Positions 6,752 to 63,849 of a DNA stretch of 64,000 bases are shown piece by piece. Location of the stretch: contig NZ_MSIF01000005.1 in assembly GCF_001921215.1 (NCBI RefSeq), positions 310,001 through 374,000 on the forward strand, read 5' to 3'. Position 1 is the stretch's first letter; every line of letters begins with the position of its first letter. Below the pieces are notes generated by a model. The model was given only the letters and a program-made list of their open reading frames with translations. It had not been told where the DNA came from and searched no databases. A program made the position numbers and the translations under genes. The stretch comes from Actinophytocola xinjiangensis. GTDB taxonomy: Bacteria > Actinomycetota > Actinomycetes > Mycobacteriales > Pseudonocardiaceae.

Positions 6752-8237
6752 GTGGATGCGCTACGACCAGGCGATCCGGACCGGATCGGCGACTACACGA
6801 CCGTCGCCCGCCTCGGCAGCGGCGCCATGGGTTCGGTCTACCTGGCCCGCTCCCCCGGCGGCCGCGAGGTGGCGGTGAAGCTGGTCCGCCCCGAACTGGC
6901 CGACGACGACGACTTCCGCACCCGCTTCCGCCACGAGGTCGCCGCGATGCGCGCGGTGGGCGGGTTCTGGACCGCCGCCGTGGTGGACGCCGACCCCGAC
7001 GCAGCGGTTCCGTGGCTGGCCAGCGAGTACGTCCCCGGCCCCACCCTGCACACGGCCGTCGCCACCCAGGGCCCGCTGCCCGAGCCCGAGGCCCGCGCGC
7101 TGGCCGCCGGCCTCGCCGAGGCCCTGCGCGCCATCCACGCCGCCGGCCTGATCCACCGCGACCTCAAGCCCGCCAACGTCCTCCTGGCCCCCACCGGCCC
7201 TCGAGTGATCGACTTCGGCATCGCGAGAACCCTCGACGGCCCCGGTCTGACCGCCACCGGCCTGGTGGTGGGCACCCCCCCACTACCTGTCCCCCGAACA
7301 GATCCAGGGCGACCCGCTGACCCCCGCGAGCGACATCCACGCCCTGGGCGCCGTCCTGGTCCACGCCACCACCGGCGAACCCCCGTTCGGCTCCGGTCCC
7401 GTCCCCGCCCTCCTCTACCGCATAGTCCACGGCACTCCCACTCTCGACCACGTCCCTGACTCCCTGCGCGCCCTGATCACCCACTGCCTCAACCGCGACC
7501 CCACGACCCGCCCCACCACCACCGACCTGCTCACCGCACTGTCCCGGCCGCCCGACCCGAGCCCCACCACCGCGCACCTCGACACCCCGCACCCCGACAC
7601 CGCGGCGCCCCACCCCGACAACGAACCACCCACCTCGACAGCACGTCCCCGGACACTCCCGTACACCTCGCACCCCCACGAGATCCCCAATCCCCCGACC
7701 CAGGCCCGCACCAGGCTCGACACCACACCCCCGCCGGCCCCCGCCGCGACGGAAACCTTCCGCACCGGCGGCCGTCTCCGCGCGGCGTTGACGCTGGCCG
7801 TCCTCGGTACCTGCACCACTCTCCTGGGCAACGCCACGGCTTCCAGCCTCTCCGTCACCGACCTCACCACGGCGGCGGTGACCGCCGCCCTCACCCTCGG
7901 CTTCGCCCTCCCTTCCCTCTACCAGCTGTGGCGCCTGCTCCGCCCCCGCCGCCGTCTCCAGGTCTCCCCCACCGGCCTCACCGTCCGCCACGGCCGGCGG
8001 ACCCACCACCTCCCGTGGTCCACGATCGCCAGAACCCACATCACCAACGACCACTACCGCCCCTGGCTGCTCGTCACCCCCGCCCCCGGCACCCCACCGT
8101 GGGAACTCGGCCCTCCGATCGACGGCGCCTACCGCGCCTACCCCATCGCCCACGGCGAGTCCCGGCTGTCCCGCAGCCGCCAGCGCGCGGACCTCAGGGA
8201 CGCCCTGGCTCTCCACACCCCGACGCGAGACGCGTGA
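6752..8237 (+). pseudogene. Ser/Thr protein kinase with membrane and PH-like tail, frameshifted at a C7 run
   Basis: Frame 1 starts at GTG 6752 (GAGGAG upstream) and carries a PknB-type kinase N-lobe and catalytic loop: P-loop GSGAMG (22-27), VAVK with Lys43, HRDLKPAN (His135-Arg136-Asp137) and DFG (154-156). At codon 176 the activation segment would continue as GTP-HYLSPEQ. The run at 7275-7281 has seven C where six are needed, so frame 1 turns to Arg/Pro-rich residues. The kinase C-lobe continues in the next frame from 7281 to 8237 (318 residues): C-lobe, Pro/Thr-rich linker, hydrophobic segments near 7780-7930 and a PH-like end. Repaired length would be about 494 residues. The cause may be a sequencing error, a slippage switch or recent loss. 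Confidence 0.8.
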
Positions 8238-52868: not shown

Positions 52869-52941
52869 GCCCTCGTAGCTCAGGGGATAGAGCGTCCGCC
52901 TCCTAAGCGGCAGGTCGCAGGTTCGAATCCTGCCGGGGGCA
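52869..52941 (+). tRNA. tRNA-Arg (anticodon CCT), CCA not encoded
   Basis: The acceptor stem GCCCTCG pairs with CGGGGGC (one G-U). The D-arm GCTC/GAGC, anticodon loop CTCCTAA with CCT, and T-arm GCAGGTTCGAATCCTGC fold normally. After discriminator A at 52941 comes CTCG, so CCA is added later. It borders the defence-like island and could be its integration site, although I saw no repeat of its 3' end. Confidence 0.96.
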
Positions 52942-53078
52942 CTCGTTTCGCACAGCCACAACGACTCTTGGGAACTTCGCCCTGAAGTCTTGAGTCCATC
53001 TTTGGGGCCGAAGGTCCAGTTCGTCGAACGAACTGAGTCCTTCGCACGCTGTCAGGTCGTGTGTGATACGTAACTGGG

Positions 53079-53447
53079 GTGGTATTGAACGATCTTCAGC
53101 GCGAACTGCGTGAGTTCGCTGCCCAGCGAGGCTGGGAGCGATTCCACACCCCCAAGAACCTCGTCATGGCTCTGGCTGGTGAGGCCGGTGAACTGGTCGA
53201 ACTGTTCCAGTGGCTCACACCCGACGAGTCAGCCGACGTCATGACGCGACCGGAGCAGGCGGAACGTGTCCGCGACGAGGTCGCGGATGTTCTTGCGTAC
53301 CTGCTACAACTCGCAGACCGCCTCGACATTGATCTCGCCGCCGCGTTGCGGGACAAGGTGCGGCGGAATGAGCGCCGCTATCCGGTGGAACTAGCCAAGG
53401 GGCGAGCCGACAAGTACGACCAGCTCCGCAGCGGCGACGAGGTCTAG
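53079..53447 (+). CDS. MazG-like nucleotide pyrophosphohydrolase
   Basis: In this 122-residue protein LRELREFAAQRGWERFHTPKNLVMALAGEAGELVELFQW and EQAERVRDEVADVLAYLLQLADRLDIDL carry the MazG/RS21-C6 metal motif (ExxE ... ExxD: EAGE and DEVAD). It ends KVRRNERRYPVE and KYDQLR, typical of dCTPase-like members. It hydrolyses (d)NTPs to monophosphates. GTG 53079 is taken; GTG/TTG within 9 bases are alternatives. It faces the first nuclease-helicase after 118 bases, and dNTP control genes are often met in antiphage loci. Confidence 0.9.
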   Translation: MVLNDLQRELREFAAQRGWERFHTPKNLVMALAGEAGELVELFQWLTPDESADVMTRPEQAERVRDEVADVLAYLLQLADRLDIDLAAALRDKVRRNERRYPVELAKGRADKYDQLRSGDEV

Positions 53448-53526
53448 CGCCACACCCGTCGGATCGAAGGCCACCAAGCAGGACAAAACCCACACGCCCA
53501 CCAAGAGTCGCAGGTCGCCATCGGCC

Positions 53527-53548
53527 TATTATCACCCTTTCAGGTGAT
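53527..53548 (+). promoter_or_regulatory. promoter/operator candidate of nuclease-helicase 1
   Basis: TATTAT (53527-53532) is a near-ideal -10. Overlapping it, ATCACC (53531-53536) and GGTGAT (53543-53548) form a perfect six-base dyad. ATG 53566 follows, with GGGGG at 53556-53560 as ribosome site. No clear -35 is seen. Confidence 0.4.
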
Positions 53549-53565
53549 CACTCCTGGGGGATGCG

Positions 53566-55422
53566 ATGATCTTGCTACGGAGGACGGCCCACGGGGTCCT
53601 CGAGATGAACCGCTCAGGTTCTCTCACCCAACACCTCGCCACCCAGTTCCGGTTCACGTACGGTCGCCAGCCCGGTGACAGCGAGCAGCGTTCGTGGGCA
53701 GCGAGTCTGCCAGCCCTCGCGCAGGATCTGGTCGACGCCGACCTGGGTGAGGTCGAGATGCTCGTCGAGTACCAGCTTCCACTGACGAGTCTGCGTGCCG
53801 ACGTGGTACTGGCCGGCCGGCATCCGGTCAGCCAAGCGGTCTCCTACGTCGTCGTAGAGCTCAAGCAGTGGTCCGGTGCCAGCGTCATCGACGGCGACCC
53901 TCAACTTTGCGAACCCGCAGGGCCACCCGGTCGGGTGACGCTGAATCCGATCGCGCAGGTTCGGCGCTACAGCGAGTTCCTGGTCGATTTTGTTCGCAGC
54001 CTGCAAGACATCTCCGATGCCGTTGCCGGCGTGGCCTACCTGCACAACGCTGATGAGGCGCGGGTCAGCTCTCTCCACGAGTTGCCGGCCGACCTCCACG
54101 GGCAGCTGTTCACCGCATCCACCAGGGGCGCTCTGCTCAGCTTCCTGCGCAGCAGGATCGCGCCGTATCCACCCGCTGCCGACCAACTGCTCTCCAGCAG
54201 GCTCGGTCCGAGCAAGCAGCTTATGGCCCTCGCCGCCGAGGAGATCAAGAACCGCGAGTCGTTCGTTCTCCTCGACGACCAGCAGGTGGCGTACCGGCTC
54301 GTCCTCAACGCCGTACGTCGATCCGCACGGGCCGATCACAAGGAAGTCATCGTCATCGTCGGCGGGCCCGGCTCGGGCAAGAGTGTCATCGCGCTCAGCG
54401 TTCTCGGTGAGCTGTACCGCAACGGCTTCAAGGCACTCCATGCCACCGGCTCCAAGTCGTTCACGACAACCCTACGCAAGGTCGCGGGCAAGGGAACCAC
54501 CCGCGTTCAGAAGCTGTTCCAGTACTTCAACAGCTTCATGAACGTCGGCCGCAACGACCTCGACGCCCTCGTCTGCGACGAGGCACACCGGATCCGGGAG
54601 ACTTCGAACAACCGCTACACGCCGGCCGCCAAGCGCAGTACCAAGCCGCAGGTCGAGGAGCTGATCGACGCCTCCCGCGTACCGGTGTTCCTGCTCGACG
54701 AGCACCAGGTCGTGCGGCCAGGTGAGCTGGGCACGGTCGCCCAGATCGAAGCCATGGCCACGGCCAAGAACCTGAGTGTGCGGCACGTGAATCTCGATGG
54801 ACAGTTCCGTTGCGGCGGCAGCCGCAAGTACGAGGAGTGGGTACTGCGCCTCCTCGGACTCGACGGCGAGGCCGAGCCGGTCGCATGGGAGACCGACGGC
54901 CGCTTCGAACTCCGGGTGGTCGACTCACCGACCGAGCTCGAGGCCTTCCTGCGATCGAAGGCAGACCAGGACTACAAGGCGCGGATGACCGCCGGATTCT
55001 GCTGGCCCTGGAGCGACCCGGATCCCCAACGCGGCTTACTCGACGACGTCGTCATCGGCGACTGGCGCCGCCCGTGGAACGTCAAGGGCGACCGTGGAGT
55101 CAACGGCGCACCCCCGTCCCAGCTCTGGGCCACCGACCCAGCGGGCTTCGACCAGATCGGCTGCATCTACACCGCCCAGGGCTTCGAGTACGACTGGAAC
55201 GGTGTCATCTTCGGCCCTGACTTGGTCTGGCGAGGCAACGGATGGGTCGCCGACCGCACGACCAGCGAGGACTCCGTCGTCGCCCGCGCCGAACAGTCCG
55301 ACTACGACCGGTTGATCCGCAACACCTACAAGGTGCTACTCACCCGCGGCATGGTCGGCACAGCCCTGTACTCGACCGACCCCGAAACACGGGAGAAGTT
55401 ACGGGAGCTCGTCGGGAACTGA
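53566..55422 (+). CDS. PD-(D/E)xK nuclease - DUF2075 helicase fusion 1
   Basis: 618 residues. The N-terminal domain (to about 225) has a restriction-nuclease core: VEYQLPLTSLRADVVLAG with Asp79, then SYVVVELKQW with Glu98-x-Lys100. The SF1-like DUF2075 (Schlafen-type) helicase follows: Walker A GGPGSGKS (266-273), LHATGSKSFTTTLRK, DALVCDEAHRIRE (DEAH 338-341), VFLLDEHQVVRPGE, LDGQFRCGGS, IGCIYTAQGFEYDWNGVIFGPDLV and NTYKVLLTRGM. All helicase motifs are intact. Fusions of this type are associated with antiphage defence. A paralogue lies tail to tail 100 bases away. ATG 53566 is used; ATG 53605 is an alternative. Confidence 0.88.
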   Translation: MILLRRTAHGVLEMNRSGSLTQHLATQFRFTYGRQPGDSEQRSWAASLPALAQDLVDADLGEVEMLVEYQLPLTSLRADVVLAGRHPVSQAVSYVVVELKQWSGASVIDGDPQLCEPAGPPGRVTLNPIAQVRRYSEFLVDFVRSLQDISDAVAGVAYLHNADEARVSSLHELPADLHGQLFTASTRGALLSFLRSRIAPYPPAADQLLSSRLGPSKQLMALAAEEIKNRESFVLLDDQQVAYRLVLNAVRRSARADHKEVIVIVGGPGSGKSVIALSVLGELYRNGFKALHATGSKSFTTTLRKVAGKGTTRVQKLFQYFNSFMNVGRNDLDALVCDEAHRIRETSNNRYTPAAKRSTKPQVEELIDASRVPVFLLDEHQVVRPGELGTVAQIEAMATAKNLSVRHVNLDGQFRCGGSRKYEEWVLRLLGLDGEAEPVAWETDGRFELRVVDSPTELEAFLRSKADQDYKARMTAGFCWPWSDPDPQRGLLDDVVIGDWRRPWNVKGDRGVNGAPPSQLWATDPAGFDQIGCIYTAQGFEYDWNGVIFGPDLVWRGNGWVADRTTSEDSVVARAEQSDYDRLIRNTYKVLLTRGMVGTALYSTDPETREKLRELVGN

Positions 55423-55522
55423 CGTGCACGGCCAACGAATTCTTCGCAATGCTGTTCTGAGTCACTGTTCTGGCGTTCCACGCCGACGAATGACTAGCAC
55501 ACGGAAGCGACATCAGCCCAGA

Positions 55523-57394
55523 TCAACGACAGTACTTTCGAAGGAAATCATTGGTTTTCGGATCTTCCGAGTACAGGCACACACCTTGCATTCCTCGTGT
55601 CATGAGAACCTTATAGGTGTTGCGAACAAGTTCATCGAATGACGCAACACTGGCCCTCTTCACCGACCGGTCAAATGACTCATTCGGCTGCGGACACCAT
55701 CTTCCATCGCGGATCACGAGATCCTTTCCGAAAATGACGCCCGCCCAGTCGTACTCAAAGCCTTGCGCGGTATAGATGCATCCGATCTGACCCGAGCCAT
55801 GAGAGTCCGACGCCCAGTAGGAAGCCGACGGAAATCCCGGCTCCTCCATACCTTGTCTGACGTTCCAAGGACGGCTCCATTCGCCAATTTTCACATCGTC
55901 GACGAGCCTGTACCCACTGTCATCCCTGATCGGATCATGCCAGTCCCAGCAAAAACCGGCAGCAATTCGCGACACACCGCCGAAGTTGGCCCGCTGCCGC
56001 TCCAGCCAGGCTTCAAGCGCGGCCGGCGTGTCGACCAAGTCGACCACATACTCGTCATCCGTACCTCTGACCAAATCAGACCAAGGGACTGGTTCACGGT
56101 CAACAATACCCAGCAGGCGCCGGACCCACTCATCATAGTGCGCGGAACCGCCGCAGCGGAACTGGCCGTCCAGGTCAATCTCCTGAACTCGGTGTCCCTT
56201 CATGCTCGCTACCTCGGCGATTCGCGCCGCAGAATGACTTTCGCCAGGCCGGACTTTCTGATTGTCATCAAGCAGAAATACTGGCACCTTGGCTACATCG
56301 ATCAACGTCGCAACCTGCGGCGGATACTTCCACAGCCAACGCTCGGGCATGTTGTTGTCACGAATACGATGAGCCTCGTCGCAGATCAACACGTCGAGGG
56401 AATTATGGGGAGCCTGGTCGAAGTTGTTGAAATATTTGAAAATCGATTCCGGACGCTCAAGTCCGGCAGCTACATCGCGACGTAACGTCTCAGTGAATGC
56501 TCTGGATCCCGTGGCATGAAGCACCTTTCCCTGCCGTTCCGCAAGCGTGCTCAAGAGCGCGATCGCGATCGCGCTCTTGCCCGATCCCGGGCCACCCCGG
56601 ACCACGACCACCGTCTTCTGTGTGCTTTCCTCTGCGCGGTCTGCCTGCTCGACTGCACGTAACACCAAGTCGTAGGCAACCTTCTGCGCATCAAGGAGCA
56701 GGTAACCCTGCCTACCCTCGAATGTTCCGGCAGCGGTCTTGAGTAATGTTCGCGCAGGCGCCCTACGCATCTTGATCAGGTCCTGAACGGCTTTCACCGC
56801 TCCGTCCGCCGCGCTCGGCGCCGTATCCAGCAACGAAGCCAGATCAGCCACGAAATCGCCGGTCTGATCTGCCGCGTACAGCTGACCAAAATCATCCGGA
56901 TCACGGTCGATCGATTGCGACAAGTTATGCAGGTACGCCATCCCCCGCACAGCACGAGGCACCCGGGCCAACGACGGGGTAAAATCGAGCAGATAGCGAC
57001 AGTATCTGCGCACTTGTTCGGCAGGGTGCAGGTCGGGCTGCCTGGGTGGCTTGGCGGACATCACCAAGCCAGGACCGACCTCCCTCATGTAAGACCACTG
57101 TTTCAGTTCGACGAGTACGTAGGATGCCTGCCCGGTCTCCGGGTGAACTCCGCAGAGCACCACGTCGACTCTGCGAGGGCTGTACGGAAGCTGGTATTCA
57201 AGGAGCACCTGAACGTGTCCGAGTCCCGCGTCGCATAACAGATCGAGCAGCAGCGGAACACTGTTCCGCCACGCACCTGGCTCACCCTTGTCCGCTCCTG
57301 AGTATTCGACGCCAGTCTGACGCGCCAACGTCCGCACCAAGTCTTCACGATCTGCGCGCAACAGGTTCCGCGCGGTGTCCGGTATCGACGGCAC
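55523..57394 (-). CDS. PD-(D/E)xK nuclease - DUF2075 helicase fusion 2
   Basis: 623 residues, the same architecture as the gene at 53566: LLEYQLPYSPRRVDVVLCG (Asp77), SYVLVELKQW (Glu96-x-Lys98), Walker A GGPGSGKS (267-274), LHATGSRAFTETLRRD, LDVLICDEAHRIRD (DEAH 339-342), VFLLDDNQKVRPGE, LDGQFRCGGSAHYDEWVRRLLG, GCIYTAQGFEYDWAGVIFGKDLV and NTYKVLMTRGM. The N-terminal 45 residues and the nuclease differ most between the two. Base composition is far lower than in the rest of the window (30 G+C of 60 at 56221-56280) while copy 1 is nearer average, so the two did not arise by recent duplication here. GTG 57394 is the start. Confidence 0.88.
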   Translation of the reverse strand: MPSIPDTARNLLRADREDLVRTLARQTGVEYSGADKGEPGAWRNSVPLLLDLLCDAGLGHVQVLLEYQLPYSPRRVDVVLCGVHPETGQASYVLVELKQWSYMREVGPGLVMSAKPPRQPDLHPAEQVRRYCRYLLDFTPSLARVPRAVRGMAYLHNLSQSIDRDPDDFGQLYAADQTGDFVADLASLLDTAPSAADGAVKAVQDLIKMRRAPARTLLKTAAGTFEGRQGYLLLDAQKVAYDLVLRAVEQADRAEESTQKTVVVVRGGPGSGKSAIAIALLSTLAERQGKVLHATGSRAFTETLRRDVAAGLERPESIFKYFNNFDQAPHNSLDVLICDEAHRIRDNNMPERWLWKYPPQVATLIDVAKVPVFLLDDNQKVRPGESHSAARIAEVASMKGHRVQEIDLDGQFRCGGSAHYDEWVRRLLGIVDREPVPWSDLVRGTDDEYVVDLVDTPAALEAWLERQRANFGGVSRIAAGFCWDWHDPIRDDSGYRLVDDVKIGEWSRPWNVRQGMEEPGFPSASYWASDSHGSGQIGCIYTAQGFEYDWAGVIFGKDLVIRDGRWCPQPNESFDRSVKRASVASFDELVRNTYKVLMTRGMQGVCLYSEDPKTNDFLRKYCR

Positions 57395-57420
57395 GCTACC
57401 CCCAGATCACTCCCTCGAGT

Positions 57421-57436
57421 TAACCTAGATAGGTTA
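57421..57436 (-). promoter_or_regulatory. dyad upstream of nuclease-helicase 2
   Basis: TAACCT (57421-57426) and AGGTTA (57431-57436) form a perfect dyad around AGAT, 27 bases before GTG 57394. Its A+T-rich centre could also serve as the -10 region. It is a candidate operator of the gene. Confidence 0.4.
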
Positions 57437-58097
57437 CAACCGTCACACTCCGCTATCGCCACGAAGCCTGGCTGGGATTCGCGCCGTGCCTAACAGCTTG
57501 GATTGACCAACGTCACGGCGACGTCAACGAGACGCCGTCGGCCGCCTCGAAACACGTCGAGGAGAGGCCACCGATCCAGTCGCGCACGACGCACTCCTAC
57601 CCCAAGTCGACATCCGGATGCCAGCAGTGTCAGTGTCGAGGCGCAAACCGCGCAGACGTCCAACCGCACTCCGTGACCGGCACAGCCAACGAGCGGTCGG
57701 CCCTGACACCGCCACCTGGACTGGACGACGTCCCGAACGGCCTCGACGACTTGTCGTCGAGGCGACCACGCGTACCTCCGTCAGGGTGCACGAGACGGCG
57801 GTCTGCTGCGGCGCACATGTCCTCGTATCGCCGATCGTCGGGTCACACGCGGACCGTTGCACCGCCACTGACTGGCCTTCCCGACACCGACCTGAATACC
57901 TGGTTCGATCTCGACCTACATCAACTGCTCGACGGTCTCCTGAACCGCCCAGGTTCGTCCTGACGAACGTGGTCGCCGGGCGCTTGTCAGATCGAGCGGC
58001 GGAACATGAAAACCTCCGCGAGGACCTTGCTCACGGAGCGCGGGTCCGCGAGTAGGCCTGCGAGTTGAGCTCTGAATTGATCGGCAAGGTGATCCGT
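57437..58097. other. gene-free stretch inside the defence-like island
   Basis: About 660 bases between qatC and nuclease-helicase 2 hold no convincing gene. Short open frames on both strands have poor codon use, no ribosome sites and Arg/Ser/Pro-rich random composition. It might be the remains of a lost gene, possibly one that linked the two modules, or hold a non-coding RNA; I see no decisive structure. Confidence 0.4.
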
Positions 58098-59384
58098 TCA
58101 CTCGACTGTCTCTACGGCTGGCGCCCAAAACCGTCGTAGCGGATGCTTCGCGGGAACGAGTGATTCGATCATTGTCCCGAGTTCCTGGCGGCCTCGGCGG
58201 ATGATGGGCAGAACCGCCGGGGCGGGCACGTCGGTGGGGAACGGACTGTCCGCGATGAGGTCACGGGCCGCAAAGGGCGTCGACAGCCAACGCATGAGAG
58301 CACGCAAGTCTCCGGAGTTGGTCGCGTCGACGGTCAGCTCGGCCAAGTCGAAGGAGTACTCGGTCGGGTCGTCGCCGGTGGCATGGTGTAATCCCGAGCG
58401 GCGCAGCAGGCATGGATAGCAGTAACCGCAGTTGAAGTAGCCACTGAACCGTTTTCCTCGAGGGTTTCCGCAGCTGATCGTTGTGCCCAGAATCCGGCGA
58501 TCCAGGCCCGACTCGATGGCCAGCGCACACACCTCTCCCTTGGTGAGGTGCAGTAGCGGATTGACGACGCGCACGTCGCCGCCGATGTCGTCGATGATCT
58601 GGTTGACCAGAGACAGCGTCCACGGGTGGACGGACCGGGTGGACAGTGCGCTCGGACGTGCGGAGGTGAGGGGTGGGTTCACCGCGAGCTGCCCGTTCTC
58701 CGGCACGGCCACCCGGTCAAGCCTGTTGGCCGCGGCCACACACACCCCGCTCGCCAGATAGAGCAGGCCACGGGACCGGCTGCTGGACTCGAGCGGACCG
58801 CGGGAGACGGTTTGGCCGACCTGTTTGAGGGCCTTCCCTTGCCCCATGGACTCGGCGATCTGCCGCTGGGTCTCCTGCAGCACGTCGTCGAACGCGACGA
58901 ACAGCAGGCGGTCGTCGCGTGTCCTGGCGAGGTGGGCTGCGTGCGCGCTCGAGTCGAGTCCGCCGGAGAACAAGGTGACCGCGCCGGCGGTGCCGAAGTG
59001 CAGACGGGGCCGCTGTGGTACGGCTCCCCCCAGGACTGTGATCGTCCACTGGTCGCCGGTCAGGCCGTTGAGCAGGGCCGCTACCCGGCCGAGAACAGGG
59101 GCAGCCCAGCGTTCTGGCGCCACCAGATGGACGGTGAGGTCCATTTGGCGGGTCCAACCGTCCTGAGTGTGGGCCCGGAGGTACCGCTTGTCGACCACAT
59201 ACACGGCGCGGGCGATACGCAGCAGGTCGAAGGCCCAGTCCGGCGCGGCGCCGGCAAGGTCCATCAGCTTGTCCAGCCTGTCATGGCGGTCACGGAAGTC
59301 GTCCTCGGACAACGGTTCCCAATCGCCACCTCGCTGGTGCTGGTGCGGGTCGGCGAACTCGAACCTGCGTGCTCCGGCCGTCAT
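58098..59384 (-). CDS. qatC: QueC-like 7-cyano-7-deazaguanine synthase homologue, QatC type
   Basis: 428 residues, about twice the length of housekeeping QueC because of an N-terminal domain of about 130 residues. The PP-loop ATPase motif is LFSGGLDSSAHAAHL (SGGLDSS at 140-146). A zinc site follows with Cys305 (ISCGNPRGKRF) and CGYCYPCLLRR (Cys319, 322, 325). NPLLHLTKGEVCALAIESGLD is a QueC block. Other queuosine genes (queD, queE, tgt) are absent here. Size, context and the overlapping QatB-like gene (ATGA at 59381) mark it as the QatC of Qat-type antiphage loci. Confidence 0.85.
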   Translation of the reverse strand: MTAGARRFEFADPHQHQRGGDWEPLSEDDFRDRHDRLDKLMDLAGAAPDWAFDLLRIARAVYVVDKRYLRAHTQDGWTRQMDLTVHLVAPERWAAPVLGRVAALLNGLTGDQWTITVLGGAVPQRPRLHFGTAGAVTLFSGGLDSSAHAAHLARTRDDRLLFVAFDDVLQETQRQIAESMGQGKALKQVGQTVSRGPLESSSRSRGLLYLASGVCVAAANRLDRVAVPENGQLAVNPPLTSARPSALSTRSVHPWTLSLVNQIIDDIGGDVRVVNPLLHLTKGEVCALAIESGLDRRILGTTISCGNPRGKRFSGYFNCGYCYPCLLRRSGLHHATGDDPTEYSFDLAELTVDATNSGDLRALMRWLSTPFAARDLIADSPFPTDVPAPAVLPIIRRGRQELGTMIESLVPAKHPLRRFWAPAVETVE

Positions 59385-60172
59385 GTTTCTGTCCCGCTCG
59401 TGAGCCCGAGCGCCCGGTCGACGTTGTCGCCCACGAGGTCCGCGGCAAGGTCTGCCACCGAGCGGTCACTGTCGTCCTTGCCCTGTTCACAGGGGTTCGG
59501 GATCCAGGAGGCGACCTGCTCGCCGACCCAGGCCGGGATCTGGCCACCCGGGTCGATGAGCACCAGGCCCGGCAACGCCAGCTTGACCTGTTCGGCCACC
59601 GCGGCCTTGGCGAACTCTGTCACGATGTCGGCGAAGAAGAGCCTGTACACGCTGCAGAACAGGTCCATGGCCAGACTGGACGAGCGCGTCTGGCCCGCCA
59701 CTGCTCGTCGCACGCGAGGATCGTTCAGAAGTTCCTCCGCGCACCGGGTGGCGCTACGACGAACGAAAGCGTCGATGATGCCCGTGCGCTCGCCAGCCAC
59801 CGCTGTCACGAACTCCGACATGAACCACTCGGTGTCGGAACCTGTCCACTCCGCGGGCGGGGGACCGAACGCCGCCAGGTCGTGGCGTAGCTCGTTCATG
59901 GCCCGGACCAGCCGGCTCGCGCCGGCGCGCATCGTGTCGCGGAGACCGAAGGCCTCCGGGTCCGCCCTCAGTTCCTCCTCGAGGGCGTCGAAGAACCGTT
60001 GCCCCCGTGTTCTGACGCCCCGTTGGGAGATCGGGCCGTCGCCCTGTCGAGGATTCGGGATCTCCTCCGGGGTCCTCGCCATCCCGGCAGTACCGCCGAG
60101 CTGCCCGATGCTACGCCGGAACGTCGTCCAGCCGGCGCCGCGTGGTCCGCGCCACCTGATGGAGGTGCCCAT
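59381..60172 (-). CDS. qatB: QatB-like protein with processed-glycine N-terminus
   Basis: In this 263-residue protein ATG 60172 (GGGGG 5-9 bases upstream) gives MGTSIRWRGPRGAGWTTFRR. QatB proteins typically open MGTS-x-x-(Y/W)-x-GP. Removal of Met would expose Gly. The rest is helical: TRGQRFFDALEEELRADPEAFGLRDTMRAGASRLVRAM, then FMSEFVTAVAGERTGIIDAFVRRSATRCAEELLND, with LVLIDPGGQIPAWVGEQVASWIPNP near the end. There is no enzymatic motif. The gene overlaps qatC. Identification rests on the N-terminus and pairing, as this family diverges fast. Confidence 0.75.
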   Translation of the reverse strand: MGTSIRWRGPRGAGWTTFRRSIGQLGGTAGMARTPEEIPNPRQGDGPISQRGVRTRGQRFFDALEEELRADPEAFGLRDTMRAGASRLVRAMNELRHDLAAFGPPPAEWTGSDTEWFMSEFVTAVAGERTGIIDAFVRRSATRCAEELLNDPRVRRAVAGQTRSSSLAMDLFCSVYRLFFADIVTEFAKAAVAEQVKLALPGLVLIDPGGQIPAWVGEQVASWIPNPCEQGKDDSDRSVADLAADLVGDNVDRALGLTSGTET

Positions 60173-60521: not shown

Positions 60522-60692
60522 TCACAGCTCCTCCACCACCTTACTGATCAGGGTCGCCGACCTGGCCGGTGCGAGCGCGAGGTCACGCAACCGGCCGAAC
60601 ATCCAGGTGTACCGCTCGAAGTCCTCGCGACGGTCGGGGTACAGGGCCCCGGATTCGACCTCGACGAGGATCGTCGGCTCGCCGCCGGCTGA
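60522..60692 (-). pseudogene. C-terminal fragment of a DUF5753 (Scr1/WhiJ-type) regulator
   Basis: The minus-strand frame ending at 60522 reads GGEPTILVEVESGALYPDR, then FERYTWMFGRLRDLALAPAR and SATLISKVV. This is the last part of DUF5753: a glutamate-bearing strand (VEVESG), then the helix with YxxxFxxLRxxAL and the Ser-x-x-(L)I end. Upstream in frame the residues cease to fit, and the helix-turn-helix and most of the sensor domain are missing. It lies in the right place and direction to have been the partner of the DUF397 gene. Confidence 0.7.
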
Positions 60693-60755
60693 TCTGCTTG
60701 AACAGCAACGAGATCCGCTGCCCGATCGACGGTCTCGAAGTTGCTGAGGGAACTG

Positions 60756-60800
60756 GTGCATCCCGCCGGTGTGTCCATTCGACACACCGGCGGGATGCAC
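60756..60800. terminator. 20-base-pair perfect hairpin after the subtilase gene
   Basis: Bases 60756-60775 (GTGCATCCCGCCGGTGTGTC) and 60781-60800 are exact reverse complements around the loop CATTC. The hairpin starts 7 bases past the stop at 60808 that would end the unshifted subtilase reading frame, so it is positioned as that gene's terminator. On the other strand it would stop nothing known. Confidence 0.85.
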
Positions 60801-60807
60801 TTCGCGG

Positions 60808-60971
60808 TCAGGTTCCGCTGACCATCACCTGAATGGTGCTGTTACCCAGCTGGCCGGTGCTGTTCTGGCCCCACGACCGCGCGGTGCCGTCCGCGCGGAC
60901 CGCGTGCGCCGAGCCGGCGCCGATGCACATCACCGAGGTCAACCCGCTGACCTGCGTCGCACAGGTCGGTT
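60808..60971 (-). pseudogene. out-of-frame last RCC1 unit of the subtilase
   Basis: Directly after the shift point, another frame reads TCATQVSGLTSVMCIGAGSA, then HAVRADGTARSWGQNSTGQL and ends SGT at 60808. This is a normal RCC1 unit in the same style as the seven before it. One C missing near 60967-60971 (TTN-RPV instead of TTN-PTC) explains the loss. The preceding unit (RSDG-ANGQLGD) also lacks about six residues including its WG. Confidence 0.75.
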
Positions 60972-63728
60972 GGTCGTGGTCGCGTCACCGAGCTGGCCGT
61001 TCGCGCCGTCGGAGCGCAGCGTCAGGCTGTGGCCGGTGCCGGCCGCGACCCCGCCGCTGATGTCGTTGATCGCGGCCCGGATGTCGGGCAGTGGACCGAT
61101 GTGCCGTGTGTCGGTCGCGGGCTGCGGCGCTCCGGTGCGCTTGAGCAGCGACCGGATCTCCAGCGGCGAGAGCGGCGGCCCGGACTGTGTGAGGATGCCC
61201 TGCACGGCGCCGACCGCACCGACCACCATCGGTGCCGCCCCGGAGGTCCCGTTCATGTTCGACCAGTACATCCGGTTCGGATCGGTCTCGGTGGGGGTGA
61301 GGTCGTTGCGCCCCGGCCCGAGGCCGCCGAACGAGGCGATGCAGTTCCCCCAGCCCTGCACGTCGACGCGGGTGCCGTACGTGCTGAAGTCCCGGACGGT
61401 GCGCGGCGCGGGGTGTGGGTCGGCCGGGTCGCATTCCTCGGTCCACGGCATGGTCGACGACGGTTGGCCCGCGCCGACGATGATGGACCCCGAGTCCGGC
61501 CGCCCCATGAGCATTTCCGCCCAGGGGTCCGTGCCGTCCAGGTCGAGGCTGCCGTTGCCCGCCGGCTGCACGACGGTGATGCCGGCCGCGGTGGCGGTGA
61601 CCACCTCGTCGTAGATCGGCCCCCAGATCTCCCATGGCCCGCCGGCGACGGACACCTCGAACCAGATCACGTCTCCCGGCTGGGAGTTGGTCCTGGCCAG
61701 GGCGACCGACCCCTGCCAGTCGTCGCCGTTGACGAGTTGCAGGCGCGCCTCGGGCAGCAGACCGTTGAGGCCGACGCCGTTGTCGTCGTCGGCGGCGACG
61801 AAGCCGACCGAGGCGGTGCCGTGCAGGCTGCCGCCGGCCGGTAGGCAGGGCGAGCCGACGATGACCTGCAGCCGCACCGGCGGACCGGCGGGTGCCGGCC
61901 GGGTCGCGACGTCCTCGTGGCAGGTGTTCCACAGGTTCCGCATGGCCGCCGACCGCACCGGGCTGGTGTTGGCGGTCGTGTTCCCGGTGCCGAGCTGGCC
62001 GCTGCCGTTGGCGCCCCAGGCCCACACGTACGTCTGCGTGTTGGGATCGGTGTCCAGTCCGGGGGTGTACTCGACCGCGAGCATCTGGGAGGCACCCGCG
62101 GCGACCTGGGTCGCGCCCTGGGACACGAACACCGAGGTGGGTGTGCTGGCGTTGGTGGTGCCGCCGGTGCCGAGTTGCCCGCTGCTGTTGAGCCCCCACG
62201 ACCGGACGGAGTGGTCGGTGAGCGTCGCCGCCGCGGCGGACCCGCCCGCGGTCACGGTCCTGACCGTGTTCAGGCCGGGGATGGCCGCCGGCGTGAAGGT
62301 GGTCGTGGTGGTCCCGTTGCCGAGCTGGCCGGAGGCGTTGGCACCCCACGACCAGACCGCGCCGGAGGACAGCCGTGCGTAGCTGGCGGCCGAGCCCGCG
62401 GCGACCTGGGTGGCGCCGCTGACGCCGGACACGGTGAGGGCGGTCGAGCTGCTGGGAGTGGTCGCGGGGTCGCGGCCGAGCTGACCGGAGGCGTTGGCGC
62501 CCCAGGCCTGCAGCGCGCCGGTGGTGCGCACGGCGAGCGTGTGGCTCGCGCCGGCCGCCACGGCGCCGGGGGCCGTCGAGATGCCGCTGACGCCGGACAC
62601 CGTGACCGGGGTGAGGCGCTGGGTGGTCGTGCCGTCGCCGAGCTGACCGGAGGCGTTGGCACCCCAGGCACGCATCGTGCCGTCACTGCGGACGGCGACG
62701 GCGAAGTCGCCGCCCGCGGCGATCGCGGTGACCGAGGTCAGCCCGCTCACCTGGACCGGAACGGTGCTGTTGGTCGTCGTGCCGTTGCCGAGTTGGCCGT
62801 TGCCGTTGGCGCCCCAGGTCCAGACGGTGTTGTCGGACTTCAGCGCCATGGAGAAGTTGGCGCCGGCGGCCACCGCGGTGACGTCGGTCAGGCCCGGCAC
62901 CGCCATGAAGACGGGCGAGCCGGTGGTGGTGCCGAGACCGAGCTGGCCACTGCTGCCCGCACCCCACGCCCGCACGGTGCCGACCTCGGAGGTGCCGATC
63001 TTGGCCACCATCAACGAGTGTGCGTCACCCGAGGCGATCGACCCGAACGACTGCGCGGCGGAGTCCCGCCCGCCAGCCTCGACGTCGGTGATGGTGATGC
63101 CAGCGCCCTTGCCGCCGGGCAGGGCGTGCGCGAAGTCCGCGTCGATGCCGGAGTTCGGTGACACGCCAGTGCGGTAGACCTGCGTGCTCTGCAACGGATC
63201 AGCGGGTGCTGTGATGGCGTGGTCCGGCCGCGCCATGGCCAGTTCGACGGACGGCAGCGCGTTCAGCTCGGCCAGCAGCGGTTCGATGTCACCGCCGACG
63301 CTCACGTCGAACCAGGAGTTCAGGTCGGGCAGCTCACGACCGGAACGGGCCTCGAGGCGTTCGCGTTCGGCGTCCACCGCCGCCTCGGACTGGGGTTGGG
63401 ACCTGGTGAAGACCGTGCCCGGATACCTCGCCAGGATGTCCCGCAGGGCCGCGGTTTCCGAACCGTCGCGAGCGACGGGCTGACCGGCGCGGACGTGGAC
63501 ATCCCGGTCGGCGCGGAACTTCACGGCCATCCGGGTGCGGGAAAAGCCCTTGGGAAGGGGACCCCGGGTACCCGGCATGCCCTTCTCGGCACTGTGGTCG
63601 TAGGCGGTGACGGATGTTCGCTGGGTTTCCGGCGCGGCCGCCGCCGGTGTCGGTGACCCGAGCGGGACCAGAACGGCCGCGCTCGCGACAACCAGGGCGG
63701 CCAACGCCGCGAATCTGTATCTGTGCAT
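60939..63728 (-). CDS. secreted S8 (subtilisin-like) protease with seven RCC1 units inserted in the catalytic domain
   Basis: 929 residues as read. A signal peptide (residues 4-33, FAALAALVVASAAVLVPLGS) precedes a propeptide-like region. The S8 core follows: ITITDVEAGG with Asp215, SLHGTASVGFVAADDD with His636, and MNGTSGAAPMV with Ser829, so the triad is complete. Between Asp and His, 421 residues contain seven WG-x(4)-GQLG units of the RCC1 beta-propeller type, at about 255, 305, 354, 409, 461, 511 and 571. After the catalytic Ser a further RCC1 unit begins and is cut by a frameshift at about residue 921. ATG 63728 is used; GTG 63740 with GAGG upstream is equally possible. Confidence 0.87.
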   Translation of the reverse strand: MHRYRFAALAALVVASAAVLVPLGSPTPAAAAPETQRTSVTAYDHSAEKGMPGTRGPLPKGFSRTRMAVKFRADRDVHVRAGQPVARDGSETAALRDILARYPGTVFTRSQPQSEAAVDAERERLEARSGRELPDLNSWFDVSVGGDIEPLLAELNALPSVELAMARPDHAITAPADPLQSTQVYRTGVSPNSGIDADFAHALPGGKGAGITITDVEAGGRDSAAQSFGSIASGDAHSLMVAKIGTSEVGTVRAWGAGSSGQLGLGTTTGSPVFMAVPGLTDVTAVAAGANFSMALKSDNTVWTWGANGNGQLGNGTTTNSTVPVQVSGLTSVTAIAAGGDFAVAVRSDGTMRAWGANASGQLGDGTTTQRLTPVTVSGVSGISTAPGAVAAGASHTLAVRTTGALQAWGANASGQLGRDPATTPSSSTALTVSGVSGATQVAAGSAASYARLSSGAVWSWGANASGQLGNGTTTTTFTPAAIPGLNTVRTVTAGGSAAAATLTDHSVRSWGLNSSGQLGTGGTTNASTPTSVFVSQGATQVAAGASQMLAVEYTPGLDTDPNTQTYVWAWGANGSGQLGTGNTTANTSPVRSAAMRNLWNTCHEDVATRPAPAGPPVRLQVIVGSPCLPAGGSLHGTASVGFVAADDDNGVGLNGLLPEARLQLVNGDDWQGSVALARTNSQPGDVIWFEVSVAGGPWEIWGPIYDEVVTATAAGITVVQPAGNGSLDLDGTDPWAEMLMGRPDSGSIIVGAGQPSSTMPWTEECDPADPHPAPRTVRDFSTYGTRVDVQGWGNCIASFGGLGPGRNDLTPTETDPNRMYWSNMNGTSGAAPMVVGAVGAVQGILTQSGPPLSPLEIRSLLKRTGAPQPATDTRHIGPLPDIRAAINDISGGVAAGTGHSLTLRSDGANGQLGDATTTNRPVRRRSAG

Positions 63729-63849
63729 GGGAATGCGCACCAGCGCACCTCGACTTTCCGAGCTCTGGCAACGGAAGTGGTGGTCGACCGGCCGGCCGGA
63801 AAGATCGCCCCGATAATTCACCGTAATGCCCCCGCTCTCCGCGGAAGAC

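Follow-up and report, generated by a model that had tools for sequence, protein, structure and literature searches.

A probable defence island at a tRNA-Arg hotspot of Actinophytocola xinjiangensis carries a member of a stand-alone QatB–QatC lineage of Actinomycetota

Analysis of a 64,000-nucleotide stretch of the Actinophytocola xinjiangensis genome (contig NZ_MSIF01000005.1, positions 310,001 to 374,000; hereafter the window, whose numbering is also used for coordinates beyond its end) revealed what is most probably the first part of a defence island occupying a tRNA-Arg(CCT) hotspot, with at least two independent modules. The first is a MazG-like enzyme with PD-(D/E)xK helicases of the SLFN-g3 family (PF09848, formerly DUF2075), and the second is a QatB–QatC pair (QatBC) that lacks QatA and QatD and belongs to a lineage of such two-gene loci found in Actinomycetota. 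We assign this reading a probability of about 0.8. The stand-alone QatBC lineage in Actinomycetota is the new element. An earlier interpretation made from the letters of the window (the sequence-only reading) was right to take the locus for a defence island, to name QatB and QatC and to note the lack of QatA and QatD, and its tRNA-Arg, MazG, two PD-(D/E)xK helicases, and overlapping QatB–QatC were all found in place.

A genome scan for close relatives of the window QatC yielded a lineage set of 43 loci, 38–47% identical, from Nocardia, Micromonospora/Verrucosispora, Actinomadura, Streptomyces, Dactylosporangium, and Actinocatenispora, which were inspected with flanks of up to 10 kb per side (shortened by contig ends in nine). 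Neither QatA nor QatD was found at any of the 43 (tblastn, four queries each). An order-level set, which shares some loci with the first, consisted of 298 genomes searched with QatC, helicase B (E 1e-20 or better), and MazG, giving matches in 15, 77, and 88 genomes, respectively. Eight of these genomes have a QatC 31–36% identical to that of the window, and all eight carry both QatA and QatD (canonical loci); five others (L080–L084) have a QatC 46–48% identical and carry neither, one of the loci lying at a contig end, and one further QatC match (L093) is a fragment, also without QatA or QatD. At the window site itself, tblastn detected neither gene in the surrounding 20 kb (L094), which was the extent of the QatD search, and the best QatA match genome-wide scored 28 bits. 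In a tree of QatC, the QatBC-only rows (the window and 42 loci, with L141 omitted as its matched stretch is not in one frame) and 12 QatABCD rows split with support of 100/100. A literature search for stand-alone QatBC or orphan QatC returned nothing on point beyond PMC13279940. The occurrence of qatA near only 34.3% of QatC cluster members (PMC13329287) leaves room for QatBC-only loci, which are not described in the passages of that paper cited here.

The window QatC (58098–59384, minus strand) matches the PADLOC QatC model with 203.6 bits and the solved QatC 9vlk in the Protein Data Bank (PDB) over residues 37–356 (E 4.6e-37). End-to-end alignment with canonical QatC places the ATP loop SGGLDS at residues 140–145, and the zinc cysteines Cys305, Cys319, Cys322, and Cys325, followed by LLRR, are invariant in nine aligned QatC sequences. 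As in the qatABCD systems of Pseudomonas aeruginosa and Escherichia coli, so far as these are set out in passages of PMC13279940, qatB and qatC overlap, QatB has an MGTS N terminus, and QatC combines the QueC fold signature SGGxDS and zinc cysteines with N- and C-terminal extensions. The window locus differs in the absence of QatA (a KAP NTPase) and QatD (a TatD nuclease); its QatC shares just 27–29% identity with the four canonical sequences compared, from plasmids and actinomycetes, and the first spacing of the zinc motif is 13 residues as compared with 19 in the motif given there. Of the two threonines called invariant in the same passages, Thr278 is kept and Thr280 is replaced by serine (STRSVHP). 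Ser280 is present in all 43 relatives (ST[RK]SVHP in 41, SSRSVHP in two) and was considered as a mark of the lineage, but was rejected as such because two of 12 canonical QatC also carry it, a further two of the 12 falling outside the search pattern. QatC matches at <60% identity were found in 141 plasmid records, and a search for phage-borne QatC matched only two Listeria phage records, with 28% identity across 59% of the query.

QatB (59381–60172, minus strand) is best started at the ATG at 60172 (MGTSIRWRGP...), the very coordinate at which the sequence-only reading had ended its island; this start is preceded by the ribosome-binding-site-like GGAAGGGGG, and the stop codon overlaps the qatC start by four bases (ATGA). 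No QatB model of Pfam, PADLOC, or NCBIfam matches the protein, which is 14–22% identical to canonical QatB, and its name therefore rests on the MGTS start, the gene order, and a comparison of profiles. A PDB profile search for the window QatB found nothing (best E 0.6), whereas the canonical QatB profile recovers the two solved QatB chains. When compared with each other, the lineage and canonical profiles match with P 1.9e-9, and since removal of the first 45 residues on each side still leaves a P of 1.6e-5 (0.37–0.97 in eight column shuffles), the match exceeds the MGTS tail. Met1, Gly2, Thr3, Ser4, Gly9, Pro10, and Trp15 are invariant in an alignment of 39 QatB, and an M/V/L-GTS start with an open frame of >150 codons was found in 38 of the 43 lineage loci. 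No MGTS-type start with a long frame was found in L109, L132, L134, and L140. In Nocardia crassostreae (L102, 9132–9290) the QatB start reads GTG-GGA-ACC-TCG (GTS) and the frame looks interrupted, with QatC open. Plasmid-borne relatives of the window QatB were absent from PLSDB at E 1e-5.

Passages of PMC13279940, which concern the P. aeruginosa and E. coli systems, describe QatB and QatC as a 1:1 complex, report protection against phage lambda by QatBC in the absence of QatA and QatD, and state that protection needs QatB Gly2 and the QatC ATP loop, the reaction not having been reconstituted. The window pair is likened to this core because SGGLDS, the zinc cysteines, Thr278, and MGTS are kept, and by this analogy we infer a role in phage defence. 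Most likely, QatC would bind QatB and, at its SGGLDS loop, use ATP to activate a small acid, which it would attach to the N-terminal glycine of QatB exposed by removal of Met1. The modified QatB would then presumably halt phage growth.

The surroundings of the lineage loci are consistent with defence. Genes of BREX-2, Wadjet-II, or SLFN-g3 were found at 22 of the 43 (BREX-2 at 14, Wadjet-II at eight, with several of the matches partial at 29–38% identity, and a helicase at one); among 40 stretches of 20 kb taken at random from the order, two had such genes, and one of these two overlapped a known helicase locus. Eight lineage loci have PglZ, BrxD, and PglY together on one stretch, an N6-methylase follows QatBC in eight, and in Nocardia kruczakiae QatB begins 180 bases after BrxHI in the same direction. 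Nine Micromonospora-type loci have QatBC beside a site-2-protease gene, and in four of these the opposite flank carries PglW. Among individual loci, QatBC adjoins or sits within BREX type 2 loci at L104 (directly after BrxHI), L114, L115, L119, L123, L125, L127, and L130; PglW adjoins QatBC at L103, L108, L110, and L141, with other BREX-2 genes not in the stretch, and is reduced to 22–30 residues at L107 and L137. Upstream of QatBC in an Actinomadura locus (L111) is a radical-SAM protein (6916–8022) that matches viperin weakly.

Several points weigh against our reading. The NCBIfam QatC model gives the window protein 214 bits, below its equivalog cut-off of 280, and two lineage relatives also fall short (225.7 and 226.5 bits). 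Homology of the QatB core to canonical QatB, which has a probability of about 79% when the N terminus is removed, is suggested with moderate confidence. As the lineage was chosen by similarity to the window QatC, the tree shows a coherent lineage and not all QatBC-only loci; such loci may exist elsewhere, and diverged or distant QatA or QatD are possible. The random stretches were drawn from the order to which the window belongs and the lineage loci are mostly from Streptomyces, so that the two sides of the neighbourhood comparison are unmatched in taxon. Finally, MazG, three helicases, and QatBC are neighbours in one of the 43 relatives, N. crassostreae L102, whose QatC falls in the subclade of the window (98/91).

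This last locus bears on the proposal of the sequence-only reading that the helicase-nucleases, together with MazG, act with QatBC as one composite system, substituting for QatA and QatD. The same parts are neighbours in the window and in L102, and in the window helicase B shares the strand of QatC and follows it after 703 bases (this gap, 57395–58097, matches none of the loci compared). However, a helicase is absent from the flanks of the 42 other relatives, which do without QatA and QatD all the same. QatC and the helicase also show no association in the order (Fisher P 0.36, with the window's genome left out of the double class): 71 of the 77 helicase genomes have no QatC match, five carry QatC away from the helicase contig, and the window's genome is alone in having the two together. 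The gene-neighbourhood search that had been suggested for QatBC beside DUF2075 helicases gives one of 43 relatives, N. crassostreae, and no other genome of 298 in which the two share a contig. In N. crassostreae, MazG and the three helicases are divergent from QatBC, in orientations unlike those of the window, and among matches to the window the locus ranks 28th of 69 for helicase A, 25th of 71 for helicase B, and 30th of 59 for MazG (repeats included). Because the window helicases and MazG match other loci better and the orientations differ, independent assembly at a hotspot explains L102 more simply. QatBC by itself, moreover, protects against lambda in the E. coli tests reported in passages of PMC13279940. 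Taken together, the lineage, order, and similarity-rank data led us to reject a single composite system as the main explanation, the N. crassostreae exception notwithstanding, and we consider it very unlikely.

An alternative with a slimmer chance still is that the window QatBC is a decayed Qat operon that has lost QatA and QatD and is disappearing. A regulator remnant adjoins the pair, and damaged relatives are known, with no full-length MGTS frame at L102 and L134, no QatB match in the stretch covered at L140 and L109, and a frame-shifted QatC at L141. Against this, both window genes are open and overlapping, their start and active-site motifs persist in a lineage that spans Nocardia, Micromonospora, Streptomyces, Actinomadura, and other genera, and decay would not preserve MGTS in so large a share of the loci. 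That the lineage is instead a protein-modification pair with a housekeeping role and not a defence system is highly improbable, for although the recurrent site-2-protease neighbour in Micromonospora is as for a resident gene and the QatB core has no known activity, the distribution is patchy (any QatC in 15 of 298 genomes of the order) and about half of the loci lie near other defence genes, eight of them near the BREX-2 trio noted above.

We return to the stand-alone QatBC pair and the group with which QatB may be charged. The proposed reaction with 7-carboxy-7-deazaguanine (CDG) depends on QueE. The QueE model TIGR04322 (E 1e-3) was searched against 52 genome handles, of which G209 and the genome of L103 appear identical, and the metagenome-assembled genome of L112 was left out; it found no match in the window's genome, in 38 of the 43 lineage genomes tested (the window's counted among them), or in seven of the eight QatABCD genomes of the order. 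A second QueE model, TIGR03365 (33 handles), likewise had no match in the window's genome; it gave partial matches of at most 31 bits in four lineage genomes negative by TIGR04322, and S. niveus scored 77.7 bits. Neither model gave a match that exceeded the curated cut-off, and among 14 control genomes the models had matches in 8 and 10. Real pathways could be read from the frames in two of five positives (QueD-QueE-FolE in S. niveus and QueC-QueE in M. alfalfae). One QatABCD locus has a QueE-like match (G271:C53:88933–89457) ~17 kb away from its QatC.

Since QueE was found in few lineage hosts, host-made CDG is within reach of few of them, and as 38 of 43 genomes gave no match, QatC probably does not use it. 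The hosts might also take CDG up from their surroundings, have a QueE that has diverged beyond recognition, or be supplied by the phage. QueE matches occur in 160 phage records; none of the 30 matches listed names an actinomycete host, so that the phage-supplied version lacks direct support. On the proposed reading that most lineage hosts cannot make CDG, the QatBC-only lineage would be a separate defence system whose QatB is charged by QatC with a group other than host-made CDG, and in the boldest form the infecting phage would supply this group, making charging an infection alarm; we regard this proposal as rather unlikely. A comparable pairing is that of type IV CBASS, where passages of PMC13279940 and PMC13329287 describe a QueC-family enzyme (Cap9) and a protein with a glycine motif, MGGS there and MGTS here. 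It differs in that the window QatBC has no CD-NTase beside it and its QatC lacks the Tyr/Asp pair that holds CDG.

The first module lies directly to the left of QatBC and opens with the MazG-like nucleotide pyrophosphohydrolase (53079–53447, plus strand; PF12643, 57.6 bits with a cut-off of 27; PF03819, 29.3 bits, above cut-off). Helicase A (53566–55422, plus; PF09848, 291 bits) and its paralogue helicase B (55523–57394, minus; PF09848, 253 bits) are convergent and 48% identical to each other. The N terminus of helicase A carries a conserved PD-(D/E)xK signature (Glu40, Asp79, and Glu98-Leu-Lys100-Gln-Trp); ELKQW is kept in 51 of 51 aligned helicase rows, some of which repeat one gene, and Walker A is also conserved. 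The Pfam NERD model matches helicase A alone and below its cut-off (15.4 against 22.1 bits), and the NERD-like nuclease half is supported by the conserved E, D, and ELK pattern. The nearest relatives of helicase B, at 60–66% identity, are in G090, G055, and G138, all without a QatC match. MazG is the usual neighbour of the helicase in the order: 39 of the 77 helicase genomes, that of the window included, have the two no more than 3 kb apart. This tally used 82 MazG rows from 79 genomes and dropped those weaker than E 1e-13, which account for the remainder of the 88 genomes. The window thus has the same MazG and PD-(D/E)xK-helicase pair that is common in the order, and differs in that its helicase is doubled and convergent. 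No paper was found on MazG paired with a DUF2075 or NERD-helicase in defence, nor on DUF2075 helicases in connection with phages. Judging from the domains, the likeliest action would be nucleic-acid cleavage coupled to the helicase, with MazG trimming nucleotides. A helicase 55% identical to helicase A occurs on the faecal 'Bacteriophage sp.' contig MT836681.1 (L101), which may be bacterial DNA.

The left border of the island is formed by tRNA-Arg(CCT) (52869–52942, plus strand; ARAGORN). The low G+C described by the sequence-only reading was borne out, at 0.587–0.652 across 53001–58000 and mostly 0.68–0.77 elsewhere, and what it called regulator debris corresponds to a 92-residue frame (60522–60800, minus) that matches the last third of the DUF5753 model PF19054 with 25.2 bits (cut-off 23.4) and forms the right border of the portion covered by that reading. 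The head of this remnant is a perfect 20-base inverted repeat (60756–60775 and 60781–60800) with a 5-base loop. A recent tRNA-integrating element was considered and rejected, as no direct copy of the tRNA 3′ end was found among repeats of at least 16 bases in the 12.3 kb from the tRNA onward, and the hotspot view rests on relatives. All five same-genus genomes compared (L185–L189) have the same LuxR regulator and ABC genes near the same tRNA-Arg, with other cargo; neither the helicases nor QatBC occur in these 20-kb stretches. Past the tRNA, one (G300) has relatives of the island's Wadjet genes at 78–86% identity and a MazG at 82% over 80 residues, and another (G302; L189, 7602–19358) has DISARM genes (DrmD 1278.9, DrmMI 1657, and DrmA 961 bits). 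In a genome of another genus (G055), the regulator and tRNA-Arg are found with relatives of helicase B, helicase A, and Wadjet.

Beyond the window, the island continues with a STAND-like TPR protein of 1211 residues (65421–69056) paired with an S_4TM effector of 343 residues (69053–70084; 224 bits), followed by matches for all four genes of Wadjet II (JetABCD type 2), namely JetD (70279–71985; 452 bits), JetA (71982–73583; 880 bits), JetB (73580–74824; 415 bits), and JetC (74644–78864; 1380 bits), and by a type-IV-restriction-like protein (80041–81225; 82 bits). Wadjet II is a separate system and cargo of the same hotspot, not a part of QatBC. Still within the window, 60939–63821 (minus) encodes a 960-residue subtilase in which RCC1 repeats (residues 256–528) are seemingly inserted within the S8 domain; the Pfam S8 match begins at residue 665, at model position 54.

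The QatC reaction is named as the central open question in passages of PMC13279940. A lineage of two genes is the natural counterpart of the published sufficiency of QatBC, in that the core exists alone in nature. Its hosts may also narrow the chemistry of QatC, as a host without QueE would exclude host-made CDG as the substrate. Surveys of actinomycete defence would miss the lineage because it escapes present QatB models, and its recurrent placement in or beside BREX-2 and Wadjet loci makes a possible co-operation between these systems testable.

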